Of a stretch of DNA of 64,000 nucleotides, positions 26,899-40,414 are shown piece by piece. The notes beneath the pieces were generated by a model, which was not told the DNA's origin, made no database searches, and saw nothing but the letters and a program-made list of their open reading frames with translations. The DNA is taken from the NCBI GenBank assembly GCA_002869585.1, contig PKUO01000052.1:82498-146497 (forward strand), in the 5' to 3' direction. Each line of letters starts with the position of its first letter. Position 1 is the first letter of the stretch. A program made the position numbers and the translations under genes. This stretch comes from Sedimenticola sp. (GTDB lineage: Bacteria; Pseudomonadota; Gammaproteobacteria; Chromatiales; Chromatiaceae).

Positions 26899-28251
26899 TC
26901 AGAAATAGCGCCAGTGGAGATAGAAACTGCTGATCAGGATCGACAGCAGCATCAACGGAAAGGCACCCAGCATAAACGGCAAGAAGCGAATGCGCTGACC
27001 GGAGCGCTCGGCAAAACCGGCGACAATCAGATTGGCGCTGGCGCCAACCAGGCTGCCGTTACCCCCCAGACAGGAACCCAGCGCCAACGACCACCAGAGT
27101 GGCTGCAACTCCTGTATTCCGCCAAAACTCACTGCCATACTCTTGATCAGCGGGATCATGGTGGCGACGAAGGGGATGTTGTCCACAATCGCCGAGGCAA
27201 CGGCGGAGACCCAGAGGATAGTGATTGCCGTGGTGGCGCGATCCCCGCCGGTCAGCGACAGCACCTTATGGGCAACCTGCTCCAGAATACCTGTGGTCTC
27301 CACCCCGTAGACGACGATAAACAGACCGATAAAAAAGAACAGGGTGGTCCACTCCACATCGCAGAATGTGGTGTGAACCAGTTCTGATTGCTTATTCGCC
27401 GGTTTGGGCAGGATATGCAGAACCAGGAGCATGGCGGCGCCGAACATGGCGACCGTGGCCGGCTGCAGTTGCAACGAATGCCCCTGGATAAAGCCGAACA
27501 TCACCAGCGCCAGGACCAACAATGACTGCTTCAGCAGGCGCGGATCCTTGATCGCATCTCTTTCGCGATATTTCATCACCCGTTCCTGCAGCGCCGGATC
27601 GGTTTTTATACGCCGTCCCCAGATCAGGTAAATCGGCACCAGTGTAACCGCGAGGATCACCACCACGATAGGCGCCAGATTGATGATGAAATCGTTAAAT
27701 CCCAGACTGGTGGCGGAACCGATCATGATATTCGGCGGGTCGCCGATCAGCGTCGCGGTGCCCCCGATGTTCGAAGCGAATATCTCGGAAAACAGATAGG
27801 GGTAGGCGTTCACCTTCAGGGTATCGGTAATCAGCAGGGTGACCGGCGCGATCAGCAACACCGTGGTGACATTATCCAGAAAGGCCGACAACACCGCGGT
27901 GACCAGCACCAGCATCACCAGCACACCCCAGGGATCGGCGTTTACCCGCTTCACCGACCAGATGGCCAGGAATTGAAACACCCCGGAATTCTTGGTGATG
28001 CCGACAATCATCATCATCCCGGTCAACAGCCCCAGGGTATTGAAATCCACCCCCTGAAAGGCCGCCTGCTGGGTAAGCACCCCGCCGATAATCATCAGAC
28101 AGGCAGCGCTGATGGCGACCACCGCACGGTTCAGGCGCTCGGTCATGATCATCAGGTAGGTCAGGACAAACAGCGAACCGGCATACCAGACAGGATCGAT
28201 ACCAAAGATGATCTGCGTGGCGAGTTCCGGATTGTGCATTGTCCCGTCCAT
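26899..28251 (-). CDS. ArsB/NhaD-family ion transporter (Na+/H+ antiporter-like)
   Basis: A 450-residue polytopic inner-membrane protein with about 11-12 hydrophobic segments. The IT-superfamily motifs typical of NhaD are present: SAFLDNVTTVLLIAPVT, SNIGGTATLIGDPPNIMIG, and in the second half SAIVDNIPFVATMIP and LGGNGSLVGASANLIVAG. NhaD antiporters exchange Na+ or Li+ for protons; substrate cannot be fixed from sequence. Its ATG overlaps the stop of a CBS-domain gene by one base, suggesting that the CBS protein regulates the transporter. Confidence 0.85.
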   Translation of the reverse strand: MDGTMHNPELATQIIFGIDPVWYAGSLFVLTYLMIMTERLNRAVVAISAACLMIIGGVLTQQAAFQGVDFNTLGLLTGMMMIVGITKNSGVFQFLAIWSVKRVNADPWGVLVMLVLVTAVLSAFLDNVTTVLLIAPVTLLITDTLKVNAYPYLFSEIFASNIGGTATLIGDPPNIMIGSATSLGFNDFIINLAPIVVVILAVTLVPIYLIWGRRIKTDPALQERVMKYRERDAIKDPRLLKQSLLVLALVMFGFIQGHSLQLQPATVAMFGAAMLLVLHILPKPANKQSELVHTTFCDVEWTTLFFFIGLFIVVYGVETTGILEQVAHKVLSLTGGDRATTAITILWVSAVASAIVDNIPFVATMIPLIKSMAVSFGGIQELQPLWWSLALGSCLGGNGSLVGASANLIVAGFAERSGQRIRFLPFMLGAFPLMLLSILISSFYLHWRYF

Positions 28252-28703
28252 TATGCTGAAAGTATGTGCTTACCCACATCCCAATAGGAGATCATGCCCA
28301 GCAGTTTGCAACTCCCCGGTTCCAACACCGGAATACTGGTCCGGGTATCATGCAGCAGAAGCAGCGTCTCGAGCAGCGGGGTATCCGGACGCACAGTGGC
28401 GATATCGGTATTCATGCACACCGAGATGTCCTGATCCTCGATCTCGCGAAAACGGTTATGCAGATCCTCCAGGGACTCGTGGATGAAGGAGATGTTTTTC
28501 AGCCCCTTTTCCATCAATACCGGCTTGGGCAAAACCAGCTTCAGAAGACAGTTGACGCCGAACACACCAAGATAACACCCCTCGTCATCCACCACCGGCA
28601 GGTTACGATAACGGTTTTCCATGATGAATCGCGCTGCCGTGCTGATCTTGTCGGTCGGTTTAAGAACTGTCGGATGGGGGTCCATTACTGCTGCAGCATT
28701 CAT
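28251..28703 (-). CDS. CBS-pair domain protein
   Basis: A 150-residue protein made almost entirely of two CBS repeats: the first about 1-60 (VMDPHPTVLKPTDKISTAA with RNLPVVDDEGCYLGVF), the second about 92-150 (TDIATVRPDTPLLETLLLL with TSIPVLEPGSCKLLGMI). CBS pairs bind adenine nucleotides and act as switches on partner proteins. It precedes and overlaps the NhaD-like gene, so control of ion exchange by cell energy state is a reasonable inference. It lacks a catalytic domain. Confidence 0.85.
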   Translation of the reverse strand: MNAAAVMDPHPTVLKPTDKISTAARFIMENRYRNLPVVDDEGCYLGVFGVNCLLKLVLPKPVLMEKGLKNISFIHESLEDLHNRFREIEDQDISVCMNTDIATVRPDTPLLETLLLLHDTRTSIPVLEPGSCKLLGMISYWDVGKHILSA

Positions 28704-28901: not shown

Positions 28902-29405
28902 TTACACGCCACCACTGTGAATAATCTCATAATAGATCTTTTCGAGTTCGTTCTTGTGCTTGGTCTCTTCATTGGCGAGAAACTGAAACAGGGACTGGAT
29001 CGGCCCCGGCTCGGTGCTTTCCGCCAATGCCGTGTACTGCTCCATGGCGGTATGTTCGCGCATCAGGGCGTACTGCAGCACAGCCTGGTCATCCGGCTTA
29101 TCCCCCAGGTCCGGCAGGTGGATGCAGTCTGAGAACTTATGGTCGCTGGCCGGTGTCATCACCTCTGCCTTGGTCAACTCCACCATCTCAGGATTGTTCG
29201 CAAGGTTACTGAACAGGTCGAAATGCTCCTGTTCCTCTGCAGCCAGCTCCTCCACCAGATAGCGGAGATTCTTGCTAACCTTGGGGATCAAATCGGAATA
29301 AAAATCCCGCGCGGTGCGCTCAAACTCGATTGCGACAGCAAGAATATCCTTCAGGCTGCTCTGAGACTTCAAACGCGCATAGCTGCTGCTTTCACCCTCA
29401 CTCAT
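28902..29405 (-). CDS. Ferritin-like diiron protein (rubrerythrin-related), last gene of the MBX-like operon
   Basis: A 167-residue four-helix protein of the ferritin/rubrerythrin superfamily. The iron-binding ExxH pairs are present: E in AIEFERTARDFY, EEQEH in VEELAAEEQEHFDLF, E in MREHTAMEQY, and EETKH near the C-terminus. There is no rubredoxin-type CxxC domain. The start at 29405 overlaps the stop of the upstream oxidoreductase fusion gene (ATGA), so it is translationally coupled to the complex. A peroxide-reducing or iron-handling role near the NAD(P)H module is inference. Confidence 0.82.
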   Translation of the reverse strand: MSEGESSSYARLKSQSSLKDILAVAIEFERTARDFYSDLIPKVSKNLRYLVEELAAEEQEHFDLFSNLANNPEMVELTKAEVMTPASDHKFSDCIHLPDLGDKPDDQAVLQYALMREHTAMEQYTALAESTEPGPIQSLFQFLANEETKHKNELEKIYYEIIHSGGV

Positions 29406-31204
29406 TTCACCGCCTCCTGTTGCTTGAGCCACTGCTCGATACTCTTTGCGACACGATGGCCATCAGCAACGGCATGCACCACATCCGGACCGTTCACACA
29501 GTCACCTGCCGACCAGAGCCATGACTCAGAAGTTCGACCATCTCTGTCCACCGCTATACGACCCCGGTTCCATTCCAGCGCTTCAGTCAGATCCTCACCC
29601 AGCAGGCTGATATCGCTCATCTGGCCAATCGCCTCGATGATCATCTCACCTTCGTGAATCTGTTCATCACTCTCATCGAACTTGGGTGCAAAACGGTGCT
29701 GTTCGTCGAATATGGACAATACCTTCCAGGTTTTCAAGCCAATCACCTTCCCGCTGCCGTCCACTTCACAGGATTGCGGTCCCCGACTGTCGAGGATATT
29801 GATGCCCTCTTCCAGGGACTCTTTCACCTCGACCTGATCGGCCAGAAAATGCGCCAGATCCTCCAAAGCCGTCAGGGTAACCTGCACCTCGCCATATTTC
29901 TGCTTCTGCAGACGCGCCATGCTGCGTGCGATATCCATCGCTACGTTACCCCCGCCGATCACCACCAGGGAGCGTGGCACCTCAACCGCCACTCCCAGGG
30001 TAATATCACGCAACAGATCCACCGCCTTGTAGACAGCAGGGTGATCCGAATTGGGGATGCGTGTCGAGCGTCCCTGCTGCAGACCGATGGACAAGACCAC
30101 CGCATCGCTCTCTTCACGCAACTGCTGCATGGGGATGTCCACGCCTATTCGGGTGTTGTAGTGGATATCGACACCCATTGCAGCAATGACACCCACATCC
30201 TGATCGAGAACGTCATAAGGCAGACGATACTCGGGGATACAGTAGCGTGTCATGCCACCCGCCTTGTCCAGTGCCTCATATACATCCACCTTATGCCCCT
30301 GCCGGGCCAGATCATAGGCGGCCGTGAGACCTGCAGGTCCGGCGCCGATAATCGCTATCTTCTTGCCGGTGGCTGGCGCTGTCTTGCCAACGATCTCCTT
30401 GTAACGCGCATAGGGCACCTGCTCGGTGATATGACGTTTGAGCCAACGGATCGCAATGGGATCGCCTTCATGGCTGGAGGCACAGGAGGTTTCACAACGA
30501 TGGGTACAGATGCGTCCACAAACCTCGGAAAAGGGGTTGGTGTCGTAAAGAATGGCCAGCCCACGCTCATAATCACCATCACGCACGGCGGCAATGTAAT
30601 TTGGAATGTCCATATGCGTGGGACAGGTAGCGATACAAAGCCCGCAAGCCACACAGCGATCAGCCTCCAGCTTCGCCTGATCAACGGAATAGCCGTTGAC
30701 GATCTCGACAAACGAATCGATACGCGCTTCCGCTTCAAGCTCGCCCATGTGCACCCGCGTACCAAGAGTCAACCTGTGCCCGTCCGGCCGTTGGTAGCCG
30801 AGTTCGGCGTCATCCCAATGTTTTTTATCCACCCCCGGCGTAAAGCGGAAGGCGTCCGGATCGATCTCCACCCATTTATACTCATTGGACATGGTCAACG
30901 AGCCGGTCATGCAGACATCGACACACAGCGCACACCAGCAGCAGCGTCCGTAATCGATGCGGGGCCGCAATCCGGAATCACCCTCTTTCACCGAACGCCC
31001 TTCGACTGGCAACATATCGATCGCCCCGTTCTGGCAAATCGTCTCACAGGTGCCGCAGCCGATACATTTCTCAACGTCATTTTGATGGAAGCCCCGATAG
31101 CGCGGTGCACCGGGCCGATCGTTCAGCGGATCGGCAATGGAGACCGGATCACGGAAGATATTCTTCCAGACGGTAAAGGGGGATAGGACGTCACGTATAC
31201 CCAT
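29402..31204 (-). CDS. NuoI-like ferredoxin fused to GltD-like NAD(P)H:acceptor oxidoreductase
   Basis: A 600-residue fusion. Residues about 40-115 carry two [4Fe-4S] motifs of NuoI/MbxN type: CIGCGTCETICQNGA and CCWCALCVDVCMTGS. From about 180 a glutamate synthase small-subunit module follows: CVACGLCIATCPTHMD and the Cys-rich VCGRICTHRCETSC (N-terminal Fe-S domain), an FAD Rossmann fold IAIIGAGPAGLTAAYDLA with GGMTRYCIPEYRLP, and the NAD(P)H-binding VVIGGGNVAMDIARS. The FAD-site SAGDCVNGPDVV is near the C-terminus. Electrons from NAD(P)H would thus enter the membrane complex directly, in place of NuoEFG. It lies between the NuoD-like gene (9-bp gap) and the diiron gene (4-bp overlap). A related layout of GltD-like proteins with MBX genes is known in some anaerobes; I do not know this fusion as a described enzyme. 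Confidence 0.88.
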   Translation of the reverse strand: MGIRDVLSPFTVWKNIFRDPVSIADPLNDRPGAPRYRGFHQNDVEKCIGCGTCETICQNGAIDMLPVEGRSVKEGDSGLRPRIDYGRCCWCALCVDVCMTGSLTMSNEYKWVEIDPDAFRFTPGVDKKHWDDAELGYQRPDGHRLTLGTRVHMGELEAEARIDSFVEIVNGYSVDQAKLEADRCVACGLCIATCPTHMDIPNYIAAVRDGDYERGLAILYDTNPFSEVCGRICTHRCETSCASSHEGDPIAIRWLKRHITEQVPYARYKEIVGKTAPATGKKIAIIGAGPAGLTAAYDLARQGHKVDVYEALDKAGGMTRYCIPEYRLPYDVLDQDVGVIAAMGVDIHYNTRIGVDIPMQQLREESDAVVLSIGLQQGRSTRIPNSDHPAVYKAVDLLRDITLGVAVEVPRSLVVIGGGNVAMDIARSMARLQKQKYGEVQVTLTALEDLAHFLADQVEVKESLEEGINILDSRGPQSCEVDGSGKVIGLKTWKVLSIFDEQHRFAPKFDESDEQIHEGEMIIEAIGQMSDISLLGEDLTEALEWNRGRIAVDRDGRTSESWLWSAGDCVNGPDVVHAVADGHRVAKSIEQWLKQQEAVK

Positions 31205-31213
31205 CGTAATCTC

Positions 31214-32401
31214 TTATCTCTCGATCTCTGGCGGATAGGTGTGCAGTGACACCATCAATCCGGCCACATCGGCAATATTCACATTCACGATAAATCGTTC
31301 CAGCAACGCCATGGCATGGGTATAGGAAGGACCACGCACATTCACACGACGGGGATAACCGCTGCCATCGGTGACCAGGTAATAACCGTACTCACCGCGC
31401 GAGCATTCACCGCGCACATAGGTTTCGCCCCGTGGAATCTTCCAGTGCAACACATTCGGCAAAGGCGCCATCACCGGGCCAGCTTTGGGCATCCTGACCA
31501 GGATCTGTCGAATCAGGTCGATCGATACCAACAGATCACGACGGCGCACATCGGAGCGCGCATAGATATCCGACTCGGTAGCGACAACCGGCTCGAAATC
31601 CAGTTCCGGATAGACCAGGTAGGGCTGATCCCTGCGCACATCCTTGGCCACTCCGGCAGCCCGCGCCGTCGGTCCGGTTACCCCATAGCTGTCGAGTAGT
31701 GCCGGATCGATGTAACCCACACCGACTGCACGCTTCTTGTAGATAGCATTGCAGAACATCGCCTCGTAGACATCCTGCAGGGTGCTTTCGATCTCCTGCA
31801 GGGTCTCTTCCATACGCGCTTCGAAGCCGTCAGGCAGACCATCACGCACGCCACCCGGCATGATGAACATGTGGTAGATACGCGCGCCGGTCAGCTCTTC
31901 AAAACGATCCAGCATCAGATCACGCACATAGGTGGTCCACTGGCCGATAACGCCCATGCCAAATGCACCGGCCTGTCCACCGAGGTACATCAGGTAACTG
32001 TTGATGCGCCCCATCTCCAGGATCAGCGTACGAATCCAGTTGGCTTTTTCCGGCACTTTAATACCGGCCAGCTCTTCCACCGCAGCGGCATAGCAGTATT
32101 CGTTGAAATCCGGTTCGGGTACGCAGATTCGGCAGACGATCGGAAAGCACTGGATGAAGGTACGCCGCTCCATCAGCTTTTCAAAGCCACGGTGCAGGTA
32201 ACCGACATGGGTCTTGCCCTCGACCACCTCGTCGCCACAGACGGTCAATTCGACCGACATATTGCCGGTGATACCGGGGTGTTGCGGCCCCTGCCAGAGC
32301 TTCAGATACTTGCCGGAAGACAGATCTATATCCAGCGTGCCATCGGCACGTTTTTCGGGATATTGGCTGCGGTCGTCCTGAAAGGGTTTAAACGGAGCCA
32401 T
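31214..32401 (-). CDS. NuoD/MbxL-like 49-kDa (NiFe large-subunit-like) protein
   Basis: A 395-residue homologue of complex I subunit NuoD and of the NiFe-hydrogenase large subunit. It has GPQHPGITGNMSV at the N-terminus and HVGYLHRGFEKLME. The first hydrogenase Cys motif survives as C90-R-I-C93 (in FPIVCRICVPEPDFNEY), but the C-terminal one (DPCxxC in hydrogenases) is replaced by IADVAGLMV at about 376-384, so no NiFe centre can form. This half-motif state is unlike ordinary NuoD, which has neither pair, and resembles MBX/MBS-type subunits. Separated from nuoC by 1 bp. Confidence 0.9.
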   Translation of the reverse strand: MAPFKPFQDDRSQYPEKRADGTLDIDLSSGKYLKLWQGPQHPGITGNMSVELTVCGDEVVEGKTHVGYLHRGFEKLMERRTFIQCFPIVCRICVPEPDFNEYCYAAAVEELAGIKVPEKANWIRTLILEMGRINSYLMYLGGQAGAFGMGVIGQWTTYVRDLMLDRFEELTGARIYHMFIMPGGVRDGLPDGFEARMEETLQEIESTLQDVYEAMFCNAIYKKRAVGVGYIDPALLDSYGVTGPTARAAGVAKDVRRDQPYLVYPELDFEPVVATESDIYARSDVRRRDLLVSIDLIRQILVRMPKAGPVMAPLPNVLHWKIPRGETYVRGECSRGEYGYYLVTDGSGYPRRVNVRGPSYTHAMALLERFIVNVNIADVAGLMVSLHTYPPEIER

Positions 32402-32402
32402 G

Positions 32403-32939
32403 TTACTTGCCGTCCGGGTAGAGTTGTTCTTTCATATGCTGAGCCGGGTCCCGGGTTTCACGTCCCGGCCGCTGCTTATAGGTTTCATCGGCATACTTGA
32501 GGGTATCGAAATCACGGCGGTATGGCGGAATGTCTGCCCAACCCTCCAGAATGAAATCCTCGTTCAGCCGGGTACTACCAGGGAAATCGATGCCGAACAT
32601 CTCGCGCAGCTCGCGCTGATAGGTCGCCGCTGTCGGCCAGATATCGTGAATGCTCTCCATCGTCGCTTCATCACGCGGGATCATCACCCGCACACCGATA
32701 TCCCTGCCATGAGTACGATCACTGAGCAGATAAGTAAGTTGAAACTCACCCTCTTCCAGCCAATCCACTGCGGTCAGAATCACCAGATGTGTGAATCCCT
32801 CTTTGTCGCGCAGATGCATCAGCAACGGGCGCAACTGCCCCCTGCCTGCTGTCACGAAGGCCAGATCGGGACGCTGTTCAACCGGGTCGGTCAGCGAATA
32901 GGGTGTTGTGAGACTTTCCAGCAATTCACGCATTGTCAT
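32403..32939 (-). CDS. NuoC/MbxK-like 30-kDa subunit
   Basis: A 178-residue hydrophilic peripheral-arm subunit. The core LVILTAVDWLEEGEFQLTYLLSD and the conserved signature of 30-kDa subunits, YQRELREMFGIDFPG, are present, followed by a C-terminal tail with PPYRRDF. It is separate from the NuoD-like gene, unlike the NuoCD fusion of E. coli. An alternative start is Met3. It contacts the NuoD-like subunit and has no cofactor of its own. Confidence 0.9.
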   Translation of the reverse strand: MTMRELLESLTTPYSLTDPVEQRPDLAFVTAGRGQLRPLLMHLRDKEGFTHLVILTAVDWLEEGEFQLTYLLSDRTHGRDIGVRVMIPRDEATMESIHDIWPTAATYQRELREMFGIDFPGSTRLNEDFILEGWADIPPYRRDFDTLKYADETYKQRPGRETRDPAQHMKEQLYPDGK

Positions 32940-33587: not shown

Positions 33588-34493
33588 TTACACCAGCAGG
33601 ATCGCAAGAATGCCCAACGGCATTGCCCAAATCAGGAACCAGCGAATCGACTGCTCGACACGAAAACGCGGGAACGCCACGCCGACAAAGGCCGACACCA
33701 TGTAGATCAAAAAGACCTTGAGGAAAAAGATCGGCCAGTTGGTCGCGCCACCGAAAAAGAGATTCGTGTAGATCACAACCTTGGCCACAGGAAAAATCAC
33801 CCGGTTGGTCTGCATCAGCGCCAGATAGGAGGAGTGGTATTCCGTCGGTGGTCCTATGGGGATCTCCTGCGGGGCCAGCACCACATCGAAGGGCGGTCGC
33901 ATCATGGAGCCGAGAAAGGCCATCATCGCCGCCACCACAGCCAAGGGGTTAGTGAACAGCGTCCAGTTGAGGACACTACCCTGCTGGGCGGCCACGATCT
34001 CGGTGATCGACAGCGTCTCGTACTGAAGCGCCACCGAGAAGACCGCCAGCGCCATCGGCAACTCAGCGGCAGTGACCTGTGAAAGACCGCGTGTAATACC
34101 AATTGCGGAGTGCGGAGATCCGCTCTCGGCCGCACCCAGCGCCATACCCAGTGTGCCGAAGAAGATAAAATAGAGTGCCAGGATCAGATCGCCGGCAAAC
34201 GACAGGTTGGAGAACATCTCCGAGCCATAGATCGATGGCACGAACAGCAGCAGCCCGACACCACCGCTCAAGCGGAACACCGGTCCCAGATAGAACATCA
34301 CGCCATGGGTAATGGAGCTGCGCAGCCCGTAGTTTTTGATCAGGTCGATATAGTTCTGGTAGATCGGGATACCGTGACGACGCCCGACACGTGCCGCAAT
34401 TTTGGCGATAAAGGCCGTCATCAACAGGCCATAGTTGACGACAATAAACAACGTCAACAGCGAATAGGGGATTTTGATCCATTCAAATTCCAT
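33588..34493 (-). CDS. NuoH/MbxM-like membrane subunit
   Basis: A 301-residue membrane protein with about eight hydrophobic segments, the link between peripheral arm and ion-pumping arm. Recognisable signatures include ARVGRRHGIPIYQNYIDLIK near the N-terminus and the loop MMRPPFDVVLAPQEIPIG with the acidic chain used at the quinone or coupling site in complex I. Downstream of the large antiporter fusion by 2 bp and upstream of nuoB by 3 bp. Confidence 0.9.
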   Translation of the reverse strand: MEFEWIKIPYSLLTLFIVVNYGLLMTAFIAKIAARVGRRHGIPIYQNYIDLIKNYGLRSSITHGVMFYLGPVFRLSGGVGLLLFVPSIYGSEMFSNLSFAGDLILALYFIFFGTLGMALGAAESGSPHSAIGITRGLSQVTAAELPMALAVFSVALQYETLSITEIVAAQQGSVLNWTLFTNPLAVVAAMMAFLGSMMRPPFDVVLAPQEIPIGPPTEYHSSYLALMQTNRVIFPVAKVVIYTNLFFGGATNWPIFFLKVFLIYMVSAFVGVAFPRFRVEQSIRWFLIWAMPLGILAILLV

Positions 34494-34495
34494 GG

Positions 34496-37400
34496 CTACA
34501 CCCCCATCCGAACGAAGAAGACCACCACAACAAAGAGCAACAGATGATAGGCATAGGTCTGTCCGTTACCGGTGTAGAGCCGTCGCACAAGGTTGGCTGC
34601 GGCATGTAGAAAATCGGTGATGGTGTTCCAGAACAGCGTCACGAACGGCTGCACCATGAAGCCGAGCGCCTTGCGGTAAGGTGCGAAGAAGTTCCAGGCA
34701 AAGTGCGTGGTCTCGGGCCGGTAAGGACGTTCTGCCGAAAAGACGATATTGAACTGCTTCACCTTCTGCGCCTTGCGATTCACAAACAACAGCCAGAAGA
34801 ACAGCAGCATAAAGATCACACCGATGATGATCATGATGTTGATCGGACTCCAATACCCGTACTGACTGGTAATCAGCAGTCCATCCCAGCCCAGCCCACC
34901 ATTGGGGAAAAAGTCGTTGAGATAGCGATCCACATGACGCAGAGCGATACCGGGAACCAGCGCGAACACCAGCAGACAGGCGACATAGATCATCTGCGGC
35001 AATATCAACCAGAATGGTGCCTCCTTGATCCGACGATGTTCATCCTTCAACTGACCGAGGAAGATCGTATGGATCAGACGGAACAGATAGAGGAAAGCCA
35101 CCGGTACGGAGAGAAAAATGATCAGCATCGGCAGGCGATATTCGCTCGACATGATGGCGTTATAGAAAATCCAGCGCCCTCCGAAGCCGGACAGCGGCGG
35201 CACACCCGACACAGCGATAATGCCAATCATGACCGCGATAAAGCTCAGCGGCATCAGCGTAATCAGACCACCCATGCGATACATATCGCGAGTGCCTGTG
35301 CGCTTGGCCACGCCACCCACGGACATGAACAGCATGGACTTGTAGATGTAGTGATTGATCACGAACATCAACGCCATCAGCCAACCGAGGTGGTTCATCA
35401 ATGCGAGACCGAACAGCGCGTAGCCCATCTGTCCAATCGAGGAATAGGCCAGAAGCCGCTTAGCGTCCTCCTCGAAGATCGCCATCAGATTACCCAGTAA
35501 CGCCGAGAGGGCCCCGATCCAGAGCATCACATAGTTGAGCTTGATACCGTGCAGCTCCTGAATACCCATGCCCAGCATCAGCATCATCAAACCATAGAGA
35601 CCAGCCTTCAGGAGGATACCTGACACCATCGGCGACACGTCGGTCTCGGCCTCTGCATGGGCGCCGGGCAACCAGATGTGCAGGCCAATCGCGGCCGTCT
35701 TGGTCATGAAACCAACCGCCAGCAATATGAACACCCAGGGCGCGAGCGGTGTCGCCACTTCACTCAGGGATTGAATAGTGAAATGCACAGCACCATCTGC
35801 CGCCAGCGCAAAACCTGCCAGGATGGAAAATGCCCCCGCCAAAGAGAATATGGCATAGGAGAGCGCATGGGGTTCTGAATGCTTGCCGCGCAGAATCAGG
35901 AAATAGGAACCGATAGTCAGGAGTTCCCATGCGGCAAAGAAGTCGAACGAATCAGTAGCCCGGATCAGCATCACCAGTCCGGCATACATCAACATGGCGC
36001 CGGGATAGAAACCAATGCGTTTTCCGCTTGTGTGGAAGCTCGCCAGCAGCGTGAGCGCTCCGCCCAGGGTAAAGATGATGATAAATATCAAGCGCAGCGG
36101 ATCGTATTCGGTATAGGTCATGGCGAAGTAACCGACCAGACCGCTAATGGCCACGATGTTCTTGAACCAGGCTGGCAACCACTCCAACAGCAGGAAGGCC
36201 AGCGCAAACAACAGCGGTAATGCGAGCAGCAGATTGGCGCGCCCGGACAACTCGCCCCACAGAAAAGCCATCGCCCATCCAGCAACTACTGCGGCGAAAA
36301 TCACAACCTGTTTCAGCGGGTCAGAAACCACACCCTGCGCCGGCCGTTCCCGCTTGATGATGTATCCAAACCAGCGGAACAGATAGCCCGCCTCGATCAG
36401 TGCGCCAAACAGAATCAATGCCAGCAGAGCCAACCGGCCTTCCGCGGCCAGATAGCGAGCCAGTTCCCACTTGGCGTAAAAACCCGGGAATGGCGGCAGG
36501 CCGACCAACAGAAATACAAAGGTCAAGAAAGCAAAAATCAGCAGCGGATGGCCGCGCAGCGCACTCCAATCGGTAAGCCCCCGCCCGGCAACCAGTCCTG
36601 ACAACCAGTAGAGACCCGCTTTACCCACCGCATGGGCAATCAGCACACCGAAAGCGATGTAGTAGTAATCGTCACCCAGAATGTCGCGCTGCCCCAGCAC
36701 CGTAAACACCAAACCGATCTGTGCAATCGATGAGTACCCCAACAGACGCCGGTCATTGCTCTGTGACAACGCCAGGGTGTTGGAGACAACGAAGGTGACA
36801 ATCCCGATTGCGGTGGCAACCGGTAGCCAGCTCACACCACCGATCAGCAGCAGTTTATCCACCGCATAGAGCGCAGCCGCGCCGGTTGCCGCGGAAAAAA
36901 TCGCGGAAAAGGCCGGATGCGCGGATTCATATATATCCAATGCCCAACCATTCGCCGGGAAAGGCTTCAGCTCGGCCACAATGGCGATGAACATCAGGAA
37001 GAAGGCGATGACACCCCCTTGCAGCGCCATGAGATCAGCACCCGCCATCCCATCAATATTGAGCGTGCCTGTGGCATGGTAGGCGAAGATAATGCCGACC
37101 AGCAGCAGCACCGAAATGATCTGCGAGGCAATCAGATATTTGAAACCCGCCGATAACGCACGACTGTTGGACTGCACATCATCCGACAGCAGAATCAGAC
37201 CACCCGTCGAGATCACCACCAGTTCGAAGAAGACGAACAGGTTGAATATATCCCGGGTCAGGATAATGCCCGACAACGCCATGATGGCGATTAGCAGCAC
37301 AACCAACGAACGCCGCCCCAGACGGAACAATACCTCTTTCAGATAGAGCGCTGAGAGCAGCCCGGTCAGATTGACCAGAAGGGTCAGCACCGCCTCGGGC

Positions 37401-37633
37401 AACCCCATACGCAGATTGATGGCGAAGGGAGGTTCCGTGCCTGCCGTCAGTATGTCAACCGCTTCCGCCCCTTGCCAACCCAGCGCCCATACCCAACCGG
37501 CAGAAACCCAAGACATAAACGCGAGCGCTGCAAGGGTGATGACATAGGCAAGACCGCGCCACTGCTCCTTGAGAAAACCGAGAATAAAGGCAGCAGCCAG
37601 GGCCGCAATGATGATATAGACCGCGCTCACCAT
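34496..37633 (-). CDS. Fusion of two MrpD/NuoM-type antiporter subunits
   Basis: A 1045-residue membrane protein built from two proton-translocating domains (PF00361 type). The first (about 1-480) has the conserved transmembrane Glu E137 in FVFFELVVIS and Lys K223 in AELKPFPANGW. The second (about 485-1045) has E570 in FFAAWELLTIGS and K645 in GFMTKTAAIGLHIWLPGAHAEAETDVSP, plus a long C-terminal tail with an amphipathic segment and a final membrane helix (YHLLLFVVVVFFVRM). In MBX/MBH complexes the equivalent subunits (MbxH and MbxH') are separate genes. No stop or frameshift lies at the junction. It would give two ion channels per polypeptide. Confidence 0.9.
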   Translation of the reverse strand: MVSAVYIIIAALAAAFILGFLKEQWRGLAYVITLAALAFMSWVSAGWVWALGWQGAEAVDILTAGTEPPFAINLRMGLPEAVLTLLVNLTGLLSALYLKEVLFRLGRRSLVVLLIAIMALSGIILTRDIFNLFVFFELVVISTGGLILLSDDVQSNSRALSAGFKYLIASQIISVLLLVGIIFAYHATGTLNIDGMAGADLMALQGGVIAFFLMFIAIVAELKPFPANGWALDIYESAHPAFSAIFSAATGAAALYAVDKLLLIGGVSWLPVATAIGIVTFVVSNTLALSQSNDRRLLGYSSIAQIGLVFTVLGQRDILGDDYYYIAFGVLIAHAVGKAGLYWLSGLVAGRGLTDWSALRGHPLLIFAFLTFVFLLVGLPPFPGFYAKWELARYLAAEGRLALLALILFGALIEAGYLFRWFGYIIKRERPAQGVVSDPLKQVVIFAAVVAGWAMAFLWGELSGRANLLLALPLLFALAFLLLEWLPAWFKNIVAISGLVGYFAMTYTEYDPLRLIFIIIFTLGGALTLLASFHTSGKRIGFYPGAMLMYAGLVMLIRATDSFDFFAAWELLTIGSYFLILRGKHSEPHALSYAIFSLAGAFSILAGFALAADGAVHFTIQSLSEVATPLAPWVFILLAVGFMTKTAAIGLHIWLPGAHAEAETDVSPMVSGILLKAGLYGLMMLMLGMGIQELHGIKLNYVMLWIGALSALLGNLMAIFEEDAKRLLAYSSIGQMGYALFGLALMNHLGWLMALMFVINHYIYKSMLFMSVGGVAKRTGTRDMYRMGGLITLMPLSFIAVMIGIIAVSGVPPLSGFGGRWIFYNAIMSSEYRLPMLIIFLSVPVAFLYLFRLIHTIFLGQLKDEHRRIKEAPFWLILPQMIYVACLLVFALVPGIALRHVDRYLNDFFPNGGLGWDGLLITSQYGYWSPINIMIIIGVIFMLLFFWLLFVNRKAQKVKQFNIVFSAERPYRPETTHFAWNFFAPYRKALGFMVQPFVTLFWNTITDFLHAAANLVRRLYTGNGQTYAYHLLLFVVVVFFVRMGV

Positions 37634-37986
37634 CTCAGCTCCGTAAACTTCCCGATATCAAGGGAGCGTTTTTTCTCATACAGCTTGTAGGCAAAGGCCA
37701 GCATCAGCGCAGTCACCCCCATACCGATGACAATCGCCGTCAACACCAATGCCTGCGGCACCGGGTCGATAATGCGTGTCACCGCCTCAGTGGCAGAAAC
37801 CGCCGAATCAAGAATAGGCGCCGTGCGTCCATTCATATAACCCACCGCCACCAGGACGAGATGAACGCCGGTATTCGCTACGGAGAAGGCGACGATCATG
37901 CGCAGAATATTGCGATTGGTCAGCGCACCGTAAAATCCAATGAGAATCAGGGCGAATCCGGTCGCCATGGCCAGTTGCGCGATCAC
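37627..37986 (-). CDS. MrpC/NuoK-like subunit
   Basis: A 119-residue protein with three hydrophobic segments: LAMATGFALILIGFYGAL, ILRMIVAFSVANTGVHLVLVAVGY and ALVLTAIVIGMGVTALMLAFAYKLYE. This matches MrpC/MnhC and NuoK. Its 3' end overlaps the large fusion gene by 7 bp, and its start overlaps the MrpB-like gene by 4 bp. Confidence 0.88.
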   Translation of the reverse strand: MIAQLAMATGFALILIGFYGALTNRNILRMIVAFSVANTGVHLVLVAVGYMNGRTAPILDSAVSATEAVTRIIDPVPQALVLTAIVIGMGVTALMLAFAYKLYEKKRSLDIGKFTELRW

Positions 37987-38681
37987 AGCTCCTCCGCTTC
38001 AGACAGGTTGCTCAATATCGAGGAGAACTCCGCTCCGACCTTCAGACCGATCAGCGAATAGATCAGGGGAATCGCACCCGCCGAGAACAGCTGCCCAAAC
38101 TCCCCAATGGGCAAGATGCGGTTATCCAGAAAACCACCCGCAAGCAACAGGCCGAGGACACCGATCACCACATAGGAGAAACCGGAAAATGACTCGATAA
38201 TCGAAATCAAACGATGATTGAAACGCTTCACCGGATTGGCCAGTAACAGAAGCAACATGGCCGATGCGACGACCGCCCCCCCCTGAAACCCGCCACCAGG
38301 AGTCAGGTGACCATTAACGAAGATATAGATACCCAGAAGAAGAATCAGCGGCAGGAGCGAATGACTGCCCGTTGTCAGCAGTTCACCAACCGGCGCCTTG
38401 ACAGTTTGCGCCGCGCCCGCCCCTCGGCTACGAGCCAACACCAACCCGACAATGGCAGCCGCCAGAAACAGGACTGTCACCTCACCCAATGTATCGAGAC
38501 CACGGTAGGTGACGATAATGGCGGTCACGATATTGGCCGCGCCGATATCCTTGGCCGTGTTTTCCGCATAGTACTGCGCGGTTAGATTCAGATTTTCATC
38601 TGCCGAATAACCGGTCAACAAGGTAAAGAAAATTCCCCCGATAATCGTCAGAAGCAGCAGGGCGGCAGCGCGCTTAATCAT
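37983..38681 (-). CDS. MbhE/MbhF-like fusion (MrpA C-terminal piece plus MrpB)
   Basis: A 232-residue membrane protein. The N-terminal third (IKRAAALLLLTIIGGIFFTLLTG, then NIVTAIIVTYRGLDTLGEVTVLF) corresponds to the MbhE-type end of MrpA; the C-terminal two thirds have the MrpB core IFVNGHLTPGGGFQGGAVVASA. The start at 38681 has a GGAGG ribosome binding site and an 8-bp overlap with the upstream gene; six more codons are open to 38699. Archaeal complexes usually encode the two pieces separately. Confidence 0.85.
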   Translation of the reverse strand: MIKRAAALLLLTIIGGIFFTLLTGYSADENLNLTAQYYAENTAKDIGAANIVTAIIVTYRGLDTLGEVTVLFLAAAIVGLVLARSRGAGAAQTVKAPVGELLTTGSHSLLPLILLLGIYIFVNGHLTPGGGFQGGAVVASAMLLLLLANPVKRFNHRLISIIESFSGFSYVVIGVLGLLLAGGFLDNRILPIGEFGQLFSAGAIPLIYSLIGLKVGAEFSSILSNLSEAEEL

Positions 38682-38928
38682 TCTCGCCTCCGCGCACACG
38701 ACTCAACACAAAGAAAAACAGGAAGGTCGTCAGGCCGCTTCCAATGGCCGCTTCAGTCATGGCGACATCCGGGGCAGCGAGAACGAGGAACAACACCGAC
38801 GCAATCAAACTGACCAGACCGGCAGAGAGAATGGCAATCGGCAGGCTTTTGCCCTTGATGGCCACCAGTGCGGCCCCGATAAGAACCACGGCAAGCAGCA
38901 CTACCATTGCCAGTATCAGAGCACTCAT
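38674..38928 (-). CDS. MbhD/MrpA-type small membrane subunit (DUF4040)
   Basis: An 84-residue protein with three hydrophobic segments and the conserved APDVAMTEAAIGSGLTTFLFF motif (first part APDVAMTEAAIGS), characteristic of the hydrogenase-subunit/MrpA linker DUF4040 (MbhD). The Glu in TEAA lies in a membrane helix and is thought to be part of the ion path. Overlaps mrpG by 4 bp. Confidence 0.87.
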   Translation of the reverse strand: MSALILAMVVLLAVVLIGAALVAIKGKSLPIAILSAGLVSLIASVLFLVLAAPDVAMTEAAIGSGLTTFLFFFVLSRVRGGEND

Positions 38929-39263
38929 GGTTTCTCCCCGAAATCTTCCTCTAGCTTATCCACGCAGGTCTTATCGGACATCTTCGTACCGCTGCGATGC
39001 GCCGCACGAGCCAGCACCTGAGAGGAGATCGGATTGGTAAAGAGAATAAACAGGCCGATCAGAAGCAGCTTGAAACCCCACTCGGGCCGCAGGCAAACGA
39101 CACCGGCAAGCGTAAGCAGTGTGCCCAGCGTAGTCGCCTTGGTACCCGCCTGAATCCGGTTGAACAGATCGGGCATGCGCACCAGTCCCAGCCCACCGAA
39201 CAGCAGAAAAGCCGCACCGCAGACCAGCAATAGCCCACCCAGCAAATCAAAAAACATGGACAT
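38925..39263 (-). CDS. MrpG/MnhG-like subunit
   Basis: A 112-residue membrane protein with three hydrophobic segments. The conserved GLVRMPDLFNRIQAGTKATTLG is diagnostic for MrpG/PhaG, and TNPISSQVLARAAHRSG closes the family core. A hydrophilic C-terminal tail extends past the usual end (KTCVDKLEEDFGEKP). It shares one base with the mrpF stop. Confidence 0.92.
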   Translation of the reverse strand: MSMFFDLLGGLLLVCGAAFLLFGGLGLVRMPDLFNRIQAGTKATTLGTLLTLAGVVCLRPEWGFKLLLIGLFILFTNPISSQVLARAAHRSGTKMSDKTCVDKLEEDFGEKP

Positions 39264-39523
39264 TAAAATCCTCGTTCGAGGTAGCGTGCAACAGCAATCA
39301 CGCCAAGGAAAGACAGCAAGGCATAGACCAGCGCCACATCCAGATAGATACCGCGCCCCTCAACAAAAGCGGCCAGAACTATCGCGCTAATCGAGATAAT
39401 CGTCAAAACATCAAACGCCACCACCCGATCGGCATCGGACGGCCCTTTGACGAATCGATAAAGCGCCAGCAGCAAGGCAACACCAACGATTGCCGCAGCA
39501 ATATAGATAAAAACCTCAGCCAT
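39263..39523 (-). CDS. MrpF/MnhF-like subunit
   Basis: An 86-residue protein with three membrane segments and the MrpF signature FVKGPSDADRVVAFDVLTI between the first two, followed by DVALVYALLSFLGVIAVARYLE. It overlaps mrpE by 8 bp and mrpG by 1 bp. Confidence 0.92.
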   Translation of the reverse strand: MAEVFIYIAAAIVGVALLLALYRFVKGPSDADRVVAFDVLTIISISAIVLAAFVEGRGIYLDVALVYALLSFLGVIAVARYLERGF

Positions 39524-40013
39524 ACATGACCTCTAGATACTGCTCAAAACCGGCCACAATACTGGTAGTAGCCGCCTCAACATCCGCTGACTCTACTTTG
39601 ACCCAGTGCACATAGAGCCATTCATCATCGAGTTCGACGGTCAGCGTTCCCGGCGTCAGGGTGATGGAGTTGGCCAGCAGCAGACGTCCCATTTTGCTCT
39701 TCAGTCGTGTGCGCACCTTTACGATACCCGGCTCCACTGGCAATGAAGGAGACAGCACGATTCGGGCCAATCTGATGTTCGCGTTGATCAACTCCTTCAC
39801 GAAATAGACTGCATAGGCGAGCGCTGCCATCAGCGCCTGGGGTGTTACACGCAATTCCGAAAAAACGGCAAGGCTGTCGCGAAACAGGAAAGGGATGAGC
39901 AGCGCCACACCTATGCCGACCAGCACCACATCAACAGCGACTGAGCCGTTGAGCAGCAACCAGAAGAGCAGCAAAGTTGCAAAGAGTAATGCGAAATCCT
40001 GAGCCTTTTTCAT
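39516..40013 (-). CDS. MrpE/MnhE-like subunit, first gene of the MBX-like operon
   Basis: A 165-residue protein with two or three membrane segments at the N-terminus and the MrpE core VKVRTRLKSKMGRLLLANSITLTPGT (core part LLANSITLTPGT), then VELDDEWLYVHWV. An ATG at 40013 follows GAAGGTGA; a TTG codon directly before it also keeps the frame. It is the first gene of a 13-gene run on the minus strand. A possible promoter is at about 40060-40090. Confidence 0.9.
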   Translation of the reverse strand: MKKAQDFALLFATLLLFWLLLNGSVAVDVVLVGIGVALLIPFLFRDSLAVFSELRVTPQALMAALAYAVYFVKELINANIRLARIVLSPSLPVEPGIVKVRTRLKSKMGRLLLANSITLTPGTLTVELDDEWLYVHWVKVESADVEAATTSIVAGFEQYLEVMYG

Positions 40014-40414
40014 CAAATCACCTTCACCAAATCCAGTTTTGCACCTGCAGCATTAATGATTGCTCATTTTATCAAGTTCTGAAATGAGTCTAATCAACAA
40101 ACATGCCGAAAGGTACATAATCTAATCTTGCTTGGTCGTGACTGGCGTGGAATTCACATCGAACATTACGCCCGTTTCAGTGCACCGCCCGCACCATAAC
40201 GGGTCTGCATGACAGTAATTTTACCAGTCTCAGGCACAACCCATCGCCGTTGATTTTGTTGATCTACCGATAACGCGGAACTATCGCCTGTCGCCACGGA
40301 TAAAACCGGTAACGTCATCAAACGTTTATATTCACGTAACATTTCAAAGGTAATCTGCGATCTGGGAGAAGCCGTCACAATCCTTGAACGGCCAAAGTCA
40401 TGAAGGGCAGACCG
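40014..40414. other. Intergenic region of about 400 bp upstream of the MBX-like operon
   Basis: On the minus strand a promoter candidate reads TTGATT-N17-TGATAA roughly 60-90 bases upstream of mrpE. Between 40166 and 40342 a minus-strand frame could encode 58 residues (MLREYKRLMTLPVLSVATG onwards to KRA); the text looks protein-like but has no clear ribosome binding site, family match or confirmed start. The frame stays open to 40705, passing antisense under the next gene. I see no other feature. Confidence 0.4.

Follow-up and report, generated by a model that had tools for sequence, protein, structure and literature searches.

An MbxN-GltD fusion as predicted entry point for NADH in a bacterial membrane complex of the MBS/Mbx type

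MBS is viewed as a ferredoxin-driven evolutionary link between hydrogenases and complex I. In the Pyrococcus furiosus enzyme (MBS or Mbx; 6u8y), the proximal cluster is held by MbsJ C28, C93 and C123 only, sulfane reduction has been proposed to take place at the open iron of this cluster, and MbsJ C25 and MbsL C85/C385 are dispensable (PMC7684303). Bacterial Mbx complexes have likewise been tied to sulfur, namely the putative Mrp-Mbx of the vent symbiont Endoriftia (PMC11636981) and the MBX of Thermotoga maritima, whose mbx operon is induced by S0 (PMC9431562). The passages on these complexes put S0 reduction forward by analogy with MBS and leave a fused NAD(P)H module unmentioned (PMC11636981, PMC9431562), the same analogy making ferredoxin the MBX donor in the T. 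maritima paper (PMC9431562).

The window analysed here (64,000 nucleotides from Sedimenticola sp., contig PKUO01000052.1) carries a 12-gene Mrp-Mbx operon, read leftwards from 40016, in which the last gene encodes an MbxN-GltD fusion (Table 1). The operon resembles P. furiosus MBS in its subunit set, its three-Cys MbxJ cluster, the RICVPEPD motif of MbxL, its two antiporter-like subunits and its Mrp module, and the best PDB relative of each of MbxJ (6u8y_J), MbxL (6u8y_L), MbxN and MbxH' is MBS. Indeed, the Mrp module and the two MrpD/NuoN-like pumps expected of MBS/Mbx are present (MrpE, F, G, C and MrpB-like proteins; the H+H' chain). The differences are that MbxN is fused to a GltD module, that H and H' form one chain (MbsH-like from residue 5, MbsH'-like over residues 452-1045), that the equivalents of MbsL C385 and MbsJ C25 are Tyr and Gly in the window clade, and that the donor is predicted to be NADH instead of ferredoxin. 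The operon cluster contains no NuoE, NuoF or NuoG, so that the complex could take its electrons from NAD(P)H or produce it, as originally predicted. In loci of the Thiocapsa type and in those of Rectinema and Halanaerobiales, H and H' are matched by two separate stretches.

Table 1. Features of the Mrp-Mbx operon and of its terminal fusion gene (positions in the window)
Feature	Position	Strand	Basis
MbxA (MrpE-like, 166 aa), first operon gene	39516..40016	-	
MbxB (MrpF-like, 86 aa)	39263..39523	-	
MbxC (MrpG-like, 112 aa)	38925..39263	-	
MbxD (MbhD-like, 84 aa)	38674..38928	-	
MbxE/F (MbhE + MrpB-like, 238 aa)	37983..38699	-	
MbxG (MrpC/NuoK-like, 119 aa)	37627..37986	-	
MbxH + MbxH' antiporter-like subunits, single 1045-aa chain	34496..37633	-	
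MbxM (NuoH-like, 301 aa), membrane anchor	33588..34493	-	
MbxJ (NuoB-like, 213 aa), C64/C129/C159	32943..33584	-	alignment to MbsJ
MbxK (NuoC-like, 178 aa)	32403..32939	-	
MbxL (NuoD-like, 395 aa), no NiFe ligand pairs	31214..32401	-	
MbxN-GltD fusion, putative electron input subunit, 600 aa	29402..31204	-	frame, Pfam, NCBIfam, PDB matches, alignment
NuoI/MbxN-like domain + linker, residues 1-143	30776..31204	-	Pfam, PDB match, alignment
GltD/NfnL-like module, residues 144-595, 2x[4Fe-4S] cysteines, FAD + NAD(P) Rossmann folds	29420..30775	-	Pfam, alignment, model
TALED, residues 445-449, aligned to NADP-binding YRR motif of NfnB/DsrL-2	29858..29872	-	
Rubrerythrin-like diiron protein, ~176 aa, start uncertain, overlaps fusion gene end	28902..29432	-	

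The fusion frame has zero internal stops over its 600 residues, and its product is spanned from residue 3 to 597, in the same domain order, by one match to the NCBIfam model NF010590/PRK13984 (878 bits, E 2e-264), which is below the curated cut-off of 946 bits though full length; the model is named only 'putative oxidoreductase' and has no assigned function. Pfam places a Fer4 dicluster at 43-105, Fer4_20 at 162-262 and Pyr_redox_2 at 282-578, the nearest PDB chain of the N-part is MbsN of P. furiosus MBS (6u8y_N, E 7e-22), and the C-part matches NfnABC, StnABC, NfnL and GltD chains. These matches agree with the original prediction of a two-cluster MbxN-type wire joined in one chain to an FAD/NAD(P)H module that is complete and itself includes an Fe-S domain. 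The cysteines for 2x[4Fe-4S] in the N-part (C47, C50, C53, C57 and C88, C91, C94, C98) and for 2x[4Fe-4S] in the GltD module (C184, C187, C190, C194, C229, C233, C237, C241) are invariant, 16 out of 16, in an alignment of 28 sequences. The C-part thus displays the features of the GltD/NfnL fold (Fer4_20 with Pyr_redox_2, conserved Fe-S cysteines and Gly-rich nucleotide motifs), and an AlphaFold model of the fusion made with the 28 aligned sequences (pLDDT 85.7, pTM 0.82) superposes from residue 144 (144-595) on NfnI-L with Z 45.6 and an rmsd of 1.8 over 436 residues. A 510-aa plus-strand ORF antisense to the fusion gene (29654-31186) was rejected as a shadow ORF, similar opposite-frame ORFs being present in relatives.

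The fusion therefore shares its fold and its domain order (Fe-S, FAD, NAD(P)) with NfnB/NfnL and GltD, but it has ALED for YRR, is tied covalently to MbxN and has no NfnS partner subunit within the operon. Moreover, Glu117 of NfnB, the proximal cluster ligand of electron-bifurcating Nfn, aligns with a Lys (Lys256) that is invariant in 28 homologues. DsrL, the NAD(P)H:acceptor oxidoreductase of rDsr, is also a GltD-type module of sulfur metabolism in which the presence or absence of YRR sets NADP versus NAD; unlike the fusion, in which an N-terminal dicluster domain lies within a membrane complex, DsrL has a C-terminal ferredoxin domain and DsrAB as partner. The fused NAD(P)H module itself suggests a donor other than ferredoxin.

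The chemistry of the complex can be approached through the active-site residues of its partner subunits. Exactly three cluster cysteines of MbxJ (C64, C129 and C159) align with MbsJ C28, C93 and C123, and they are kept in all relatives whose region could be compared. The variation relative to MBS concerns dispensable cysteines only: Gly stands at the position of C25 and Tyr at that of C385, and C85 is matched by C93. In contrast to the tandem Cys-Cys pair of complex I (NuoB), MbxJ has Cys-Gly, the second Cys being replaced, and the quinone residues H38/Y87 of Thermus thermophilus Nqo4 align with T45/V94 of MbxL. MbxL also lacks the NiFe cysteine pairs, that is, the four Cys NiFe ligands that the large subunit of a group 4 [NiFe] hydrogenase (MBH) carries, and has RICVPEPD and a C-terminal HTYPPEIER in place of the hydrogenase motifs. 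Functions as complex I or as hydrogenase are thus disfavoured by MbxJ and MbxL, and since a three-Cys MbxJ is combined with neither NiFe ligands nor complex I residues, sulfane or disulfide chemistry at MbxJ would, on grounds of homology, be the best-supported reading.

With regard to the cofactor, the YRR motif occurs in the NADP-dependent NfnB and DsrL-2 and is absent from the NAD-preferring DsrL-1 (PMC7596348). In the fusion, Glu448 aligns with the second Arg of YRR, and the same replacement is seen in 37/37 clade members. Among 44 members, 37 had ALE or SLE at the YRR position (ALED of the window and 36 relatives), while 7 kept YRR, these being from Calditrichia, Caldisericaceae, Krumholzibacteriia, one further bacterium and second-type operons in the host's own family; a single branch with 98% SH-aLRT separates the two groups in a tree built without the motif columns. 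The replacement of YRR by ALED predicts that the window fusion prefers NADH. One genome (G042) holds two complete operons, of the ALED (NADH) and YRR (NADPH) types (L059 and L060), the YRR-type operon (L059) lying near a glucose-6-phosphate dehydrogenase gene; the G042 locus is identical to the 'Milos-ODIII6' locus L036. The NF010590 scores of the relatives ranged overall from 629 to 1000 bits, with about 795-1000 for the ALE/SLE type and 629-682 for the YRR type. The T. maritima protein scores over 946, so its fused protein is probably of NADH type, judging by this score.

Strict peptide patterns, run against genome contigs, returned 35 loci encoding the fusion. About 30 loci, representing seven phyla or more, conserve the arrangement, with the same order (A-B-C-D-EF-G-HH'-M-J-K-L-N(GltD), where the contig allows) in Proteobacteria (Gamma-, Beta- and Alphaproteobacteria), Bacteroidales, Calditrichota (Calditrichia), Krumholzibacteriota, Caldisericota (Caldisericaceae), Spirochaetota (Rectinema) and Halanaerobiales. 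The nearest named relatives of the window protein are from Thiothrix (about 77%). Within the host's order, 57/147 genomes carry the fusion (E <= 1e-100), phylum-wide the NF010590/PRK13984 family is matched in 6/398, and no plasmid-borne copies were found at E 1e-80. T. maritima has a PRK13984 protein and is the sole match among the named control genomes, with a score over the NF010590 cut-off; its copy may be TM1217, next to TM1205-TM1216 of the mbx operon. The view that the fusion is a non-standard arrangement must accordingly be given up: with about 30 conserved loci, a curated family model of its own and a copy in T. maritima, it appears to be how this type of Mbx is normally arranged in bacteria. 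Widespread as it is, an open-access literature search returned no paper describing the fusion or PRK13984 and no biochemistry for any fused member; older subscription reviews of Mbx were beyond its reach, so novelty is perhaps lower. The biological point becomes stronger than in the first reading, given that the partners of the fusion belong to the MBS type and that its cofactor can be predicted. In six relatives of genus g4 (G006, G015, G068, G114, G119 and G136), one in-frame TAA lies inside the homologous frame, and the gene may be split or decaying there.

Several genes accompany the operon. Nearly all proteobacterial loci have the rubrerythrin-like gene directly behind the fusion gene and overlapping it. 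Two Calditrichia loci and an operon of the YRR type (L028, L029 and L059) are followed by a divergent rubrerythrin, and in locus L016 a rubrerythrin-like gene is found upstream instead; the protein might shield the open cluster from oxygen or peroxide. In the window, genes for a CBS-domain protein and for a CitMHS/ArsB-type transporter whose best NCBIfam match is MamN, below cut-off, follow on the same strand (26899-28703, minus), and a CBS protein is also downstream in locus L027. In Bacteroidales and Delongbacteria, a dihydroorotate dehydrogenase-like gene comes after the fusion gene (L027:1928-2914 and L038:2356-3342). No recurrent sulfur-gene neighbours were found beside the operon among the loci compared.

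The host genome encodes complex I (NuoF at C26, with the nuo operon apart from the Mbx operon), a DsrA that passes its cut-off (at C21, next to a gene for a DsrL-like protein), RuBisCO and two RnfC over cut-off. By its gene content, the host is probably a sulfur-oxidising autotroph in which a quinone-linked NADH pump is already present, and the fused complex would be an addition. Co-occurrence is uninformative about a link to Dsr, since DsrA is present in 133/147 genomes of the order and absent from 3 of the 57 fusion-bearing ones.

Altogether, we lean towards the interpretation that the fusion is the subunit through which electrons enter a bacterial membrane complex of the MBS/Mbx type, acting as an ion-translocating NADH:sulfane/disulfide oxidoreductase, in which a covalently attached NADH dehydrogenase module would replace or supplement the mobile ferredoxin known from P. 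furiosus. As for electron order, substrate, ion and direction, we infer that electrons would pass from NADH to FAD, the two GltD [4Fe-4S] clusters, the two MbxN [4Fe-4S] clusters and the proximal [4Fe-4S] cluster of MbxJ, whose open iron, held in the three-Cys cluster, would reduce sulfane sulfur (polysulfide, persulfide, organic disulfide or trisulfide) or work in reverse, and that MbxM would couple this reaction to the pair of antiporter-like subunits and to the Mrp-type Na+/H+ module. With NADH at about -320 mV and polysulfide at about -270 mV, electron transfer between them yields little energy, by estimate hardly enough for one ion per electron pair. Such a small driving force calls for a more positive acceptor, for running near equilibrium or in reverse, or for an additional low-potential donor; persulfides, trisulfides and mixed disulfides could be the more positive natural acceptors. 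Forward flow fits the fermenters among the carriers and the S0 induction of T. maritima mbx (PMC9431562). Two further points count against our main reading: no sulfur gene was found to recur next to the operon, and sulfur reduction dependent on NAD(P)H or ferredoxin was not seen in T. maritima membranes (PMC9431562).

Reverse running deserves the closest attention among the alternatives, although we think it rather unlikely. The ion gradient would drive electrons from sulfide, persulfide or thiols onto NAD+, thus providing quinone-independent NADH for CO2 fixation. This would suit lithoautotrophs such as a host with Dsr genes, RuBisCO and a canonical complex I, DsrA is found in most relatives of the order, the NAD-type DsrL of Allochromatium vinosum is biased towards NAD+ reduction (PMC7596348), and the Endoriftia paper reports co-expression of the putative Mrp-Mbx of this autotrophic symbiont with the rTCA cycle, the direction being stated there as unknown (PMC11636981). 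However, the same NADH-type fusion is carried by fermentative anaerobes (Rectinema, Halanaerobiales, Bacteroidales), in which reverse flow is unexpected, the fusion is found in far fewer genomes of the order than DsrA, and S0, the inducer of T. maritima mbx, is an acceptor (PMC9431562).

A role as ion-coupled ferredoxin:NAD+ oxidoreductase appears improbable. Here, reduced ferredoxin would still dock on the MbxN part and the GltD module would do no more than exchange electrons between ferredoxin and NAD(H), with the MbxJ site used or not, in keeping with the use of ferredoxin by P. furiosus MBS (PMC7684303), the description of P. furiosus Mbx as a ferredoxin:NADP+ oxidoreductase (PMC6349859) and the electron exchange of Nfn, the closest fold, with ferredoxin. 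Yet the two RnfC of the host already serve that reaction, and the invariant three-Cys site of MbxJ would be left without a role. Still harder to defend is an alternative NADH:quinone oxidoreductase, i.e., a complex I without NuoEFG: homologues of NuoB, C, D, H and I are present and MbxL passes the NuoD model cut-off (385.6 vs 360), but the tandem cysteines of the N2 cluster and H38/Y87 are not conserved, NuoF and a nuo operon are encoded at another place in the host genome, and the best relatives are MBS subunits, which makes this highly improbable. Finally, an assembly or frame artefact at the junction (residues 115-180), the weak point considered at the outset, can be set aside with near certainty, as 27 homologues, 44-78% identical to the window protein, align full length through the conserved linker, the frame holds no stop, and the same fusion is present in the isolates Thiothrix fructosivorans ATCC 49748, Thiocapsa marina 5811 and Rectinema subterraneum.

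Beyond this host, we see about an even chance that nicotinamide-wired MBS, in NADH (ALED) and NADPH (YRR) forms, constitutes a widespread undescribed class of respiratory complexes that connects NAD(P)H with sulfane sulfur or disulfides in many bacteria, sulfur-oxidising autotrophs with complex I among them, by a junction that is coupled to ions and independent of quinones. If bacterial MBS relatives are wired to NADH or NADPH by fusion, NADH would enter a complex I relative via a flavoprotein other than NuoEF, and the roles reported for bacterial Mbx in T. maritima and vent symbionts would become testable with a defined donor. A nicotinamide-wired MBS would also predict a new site of NADH-sulfur coupling in sulfur oxidisers.
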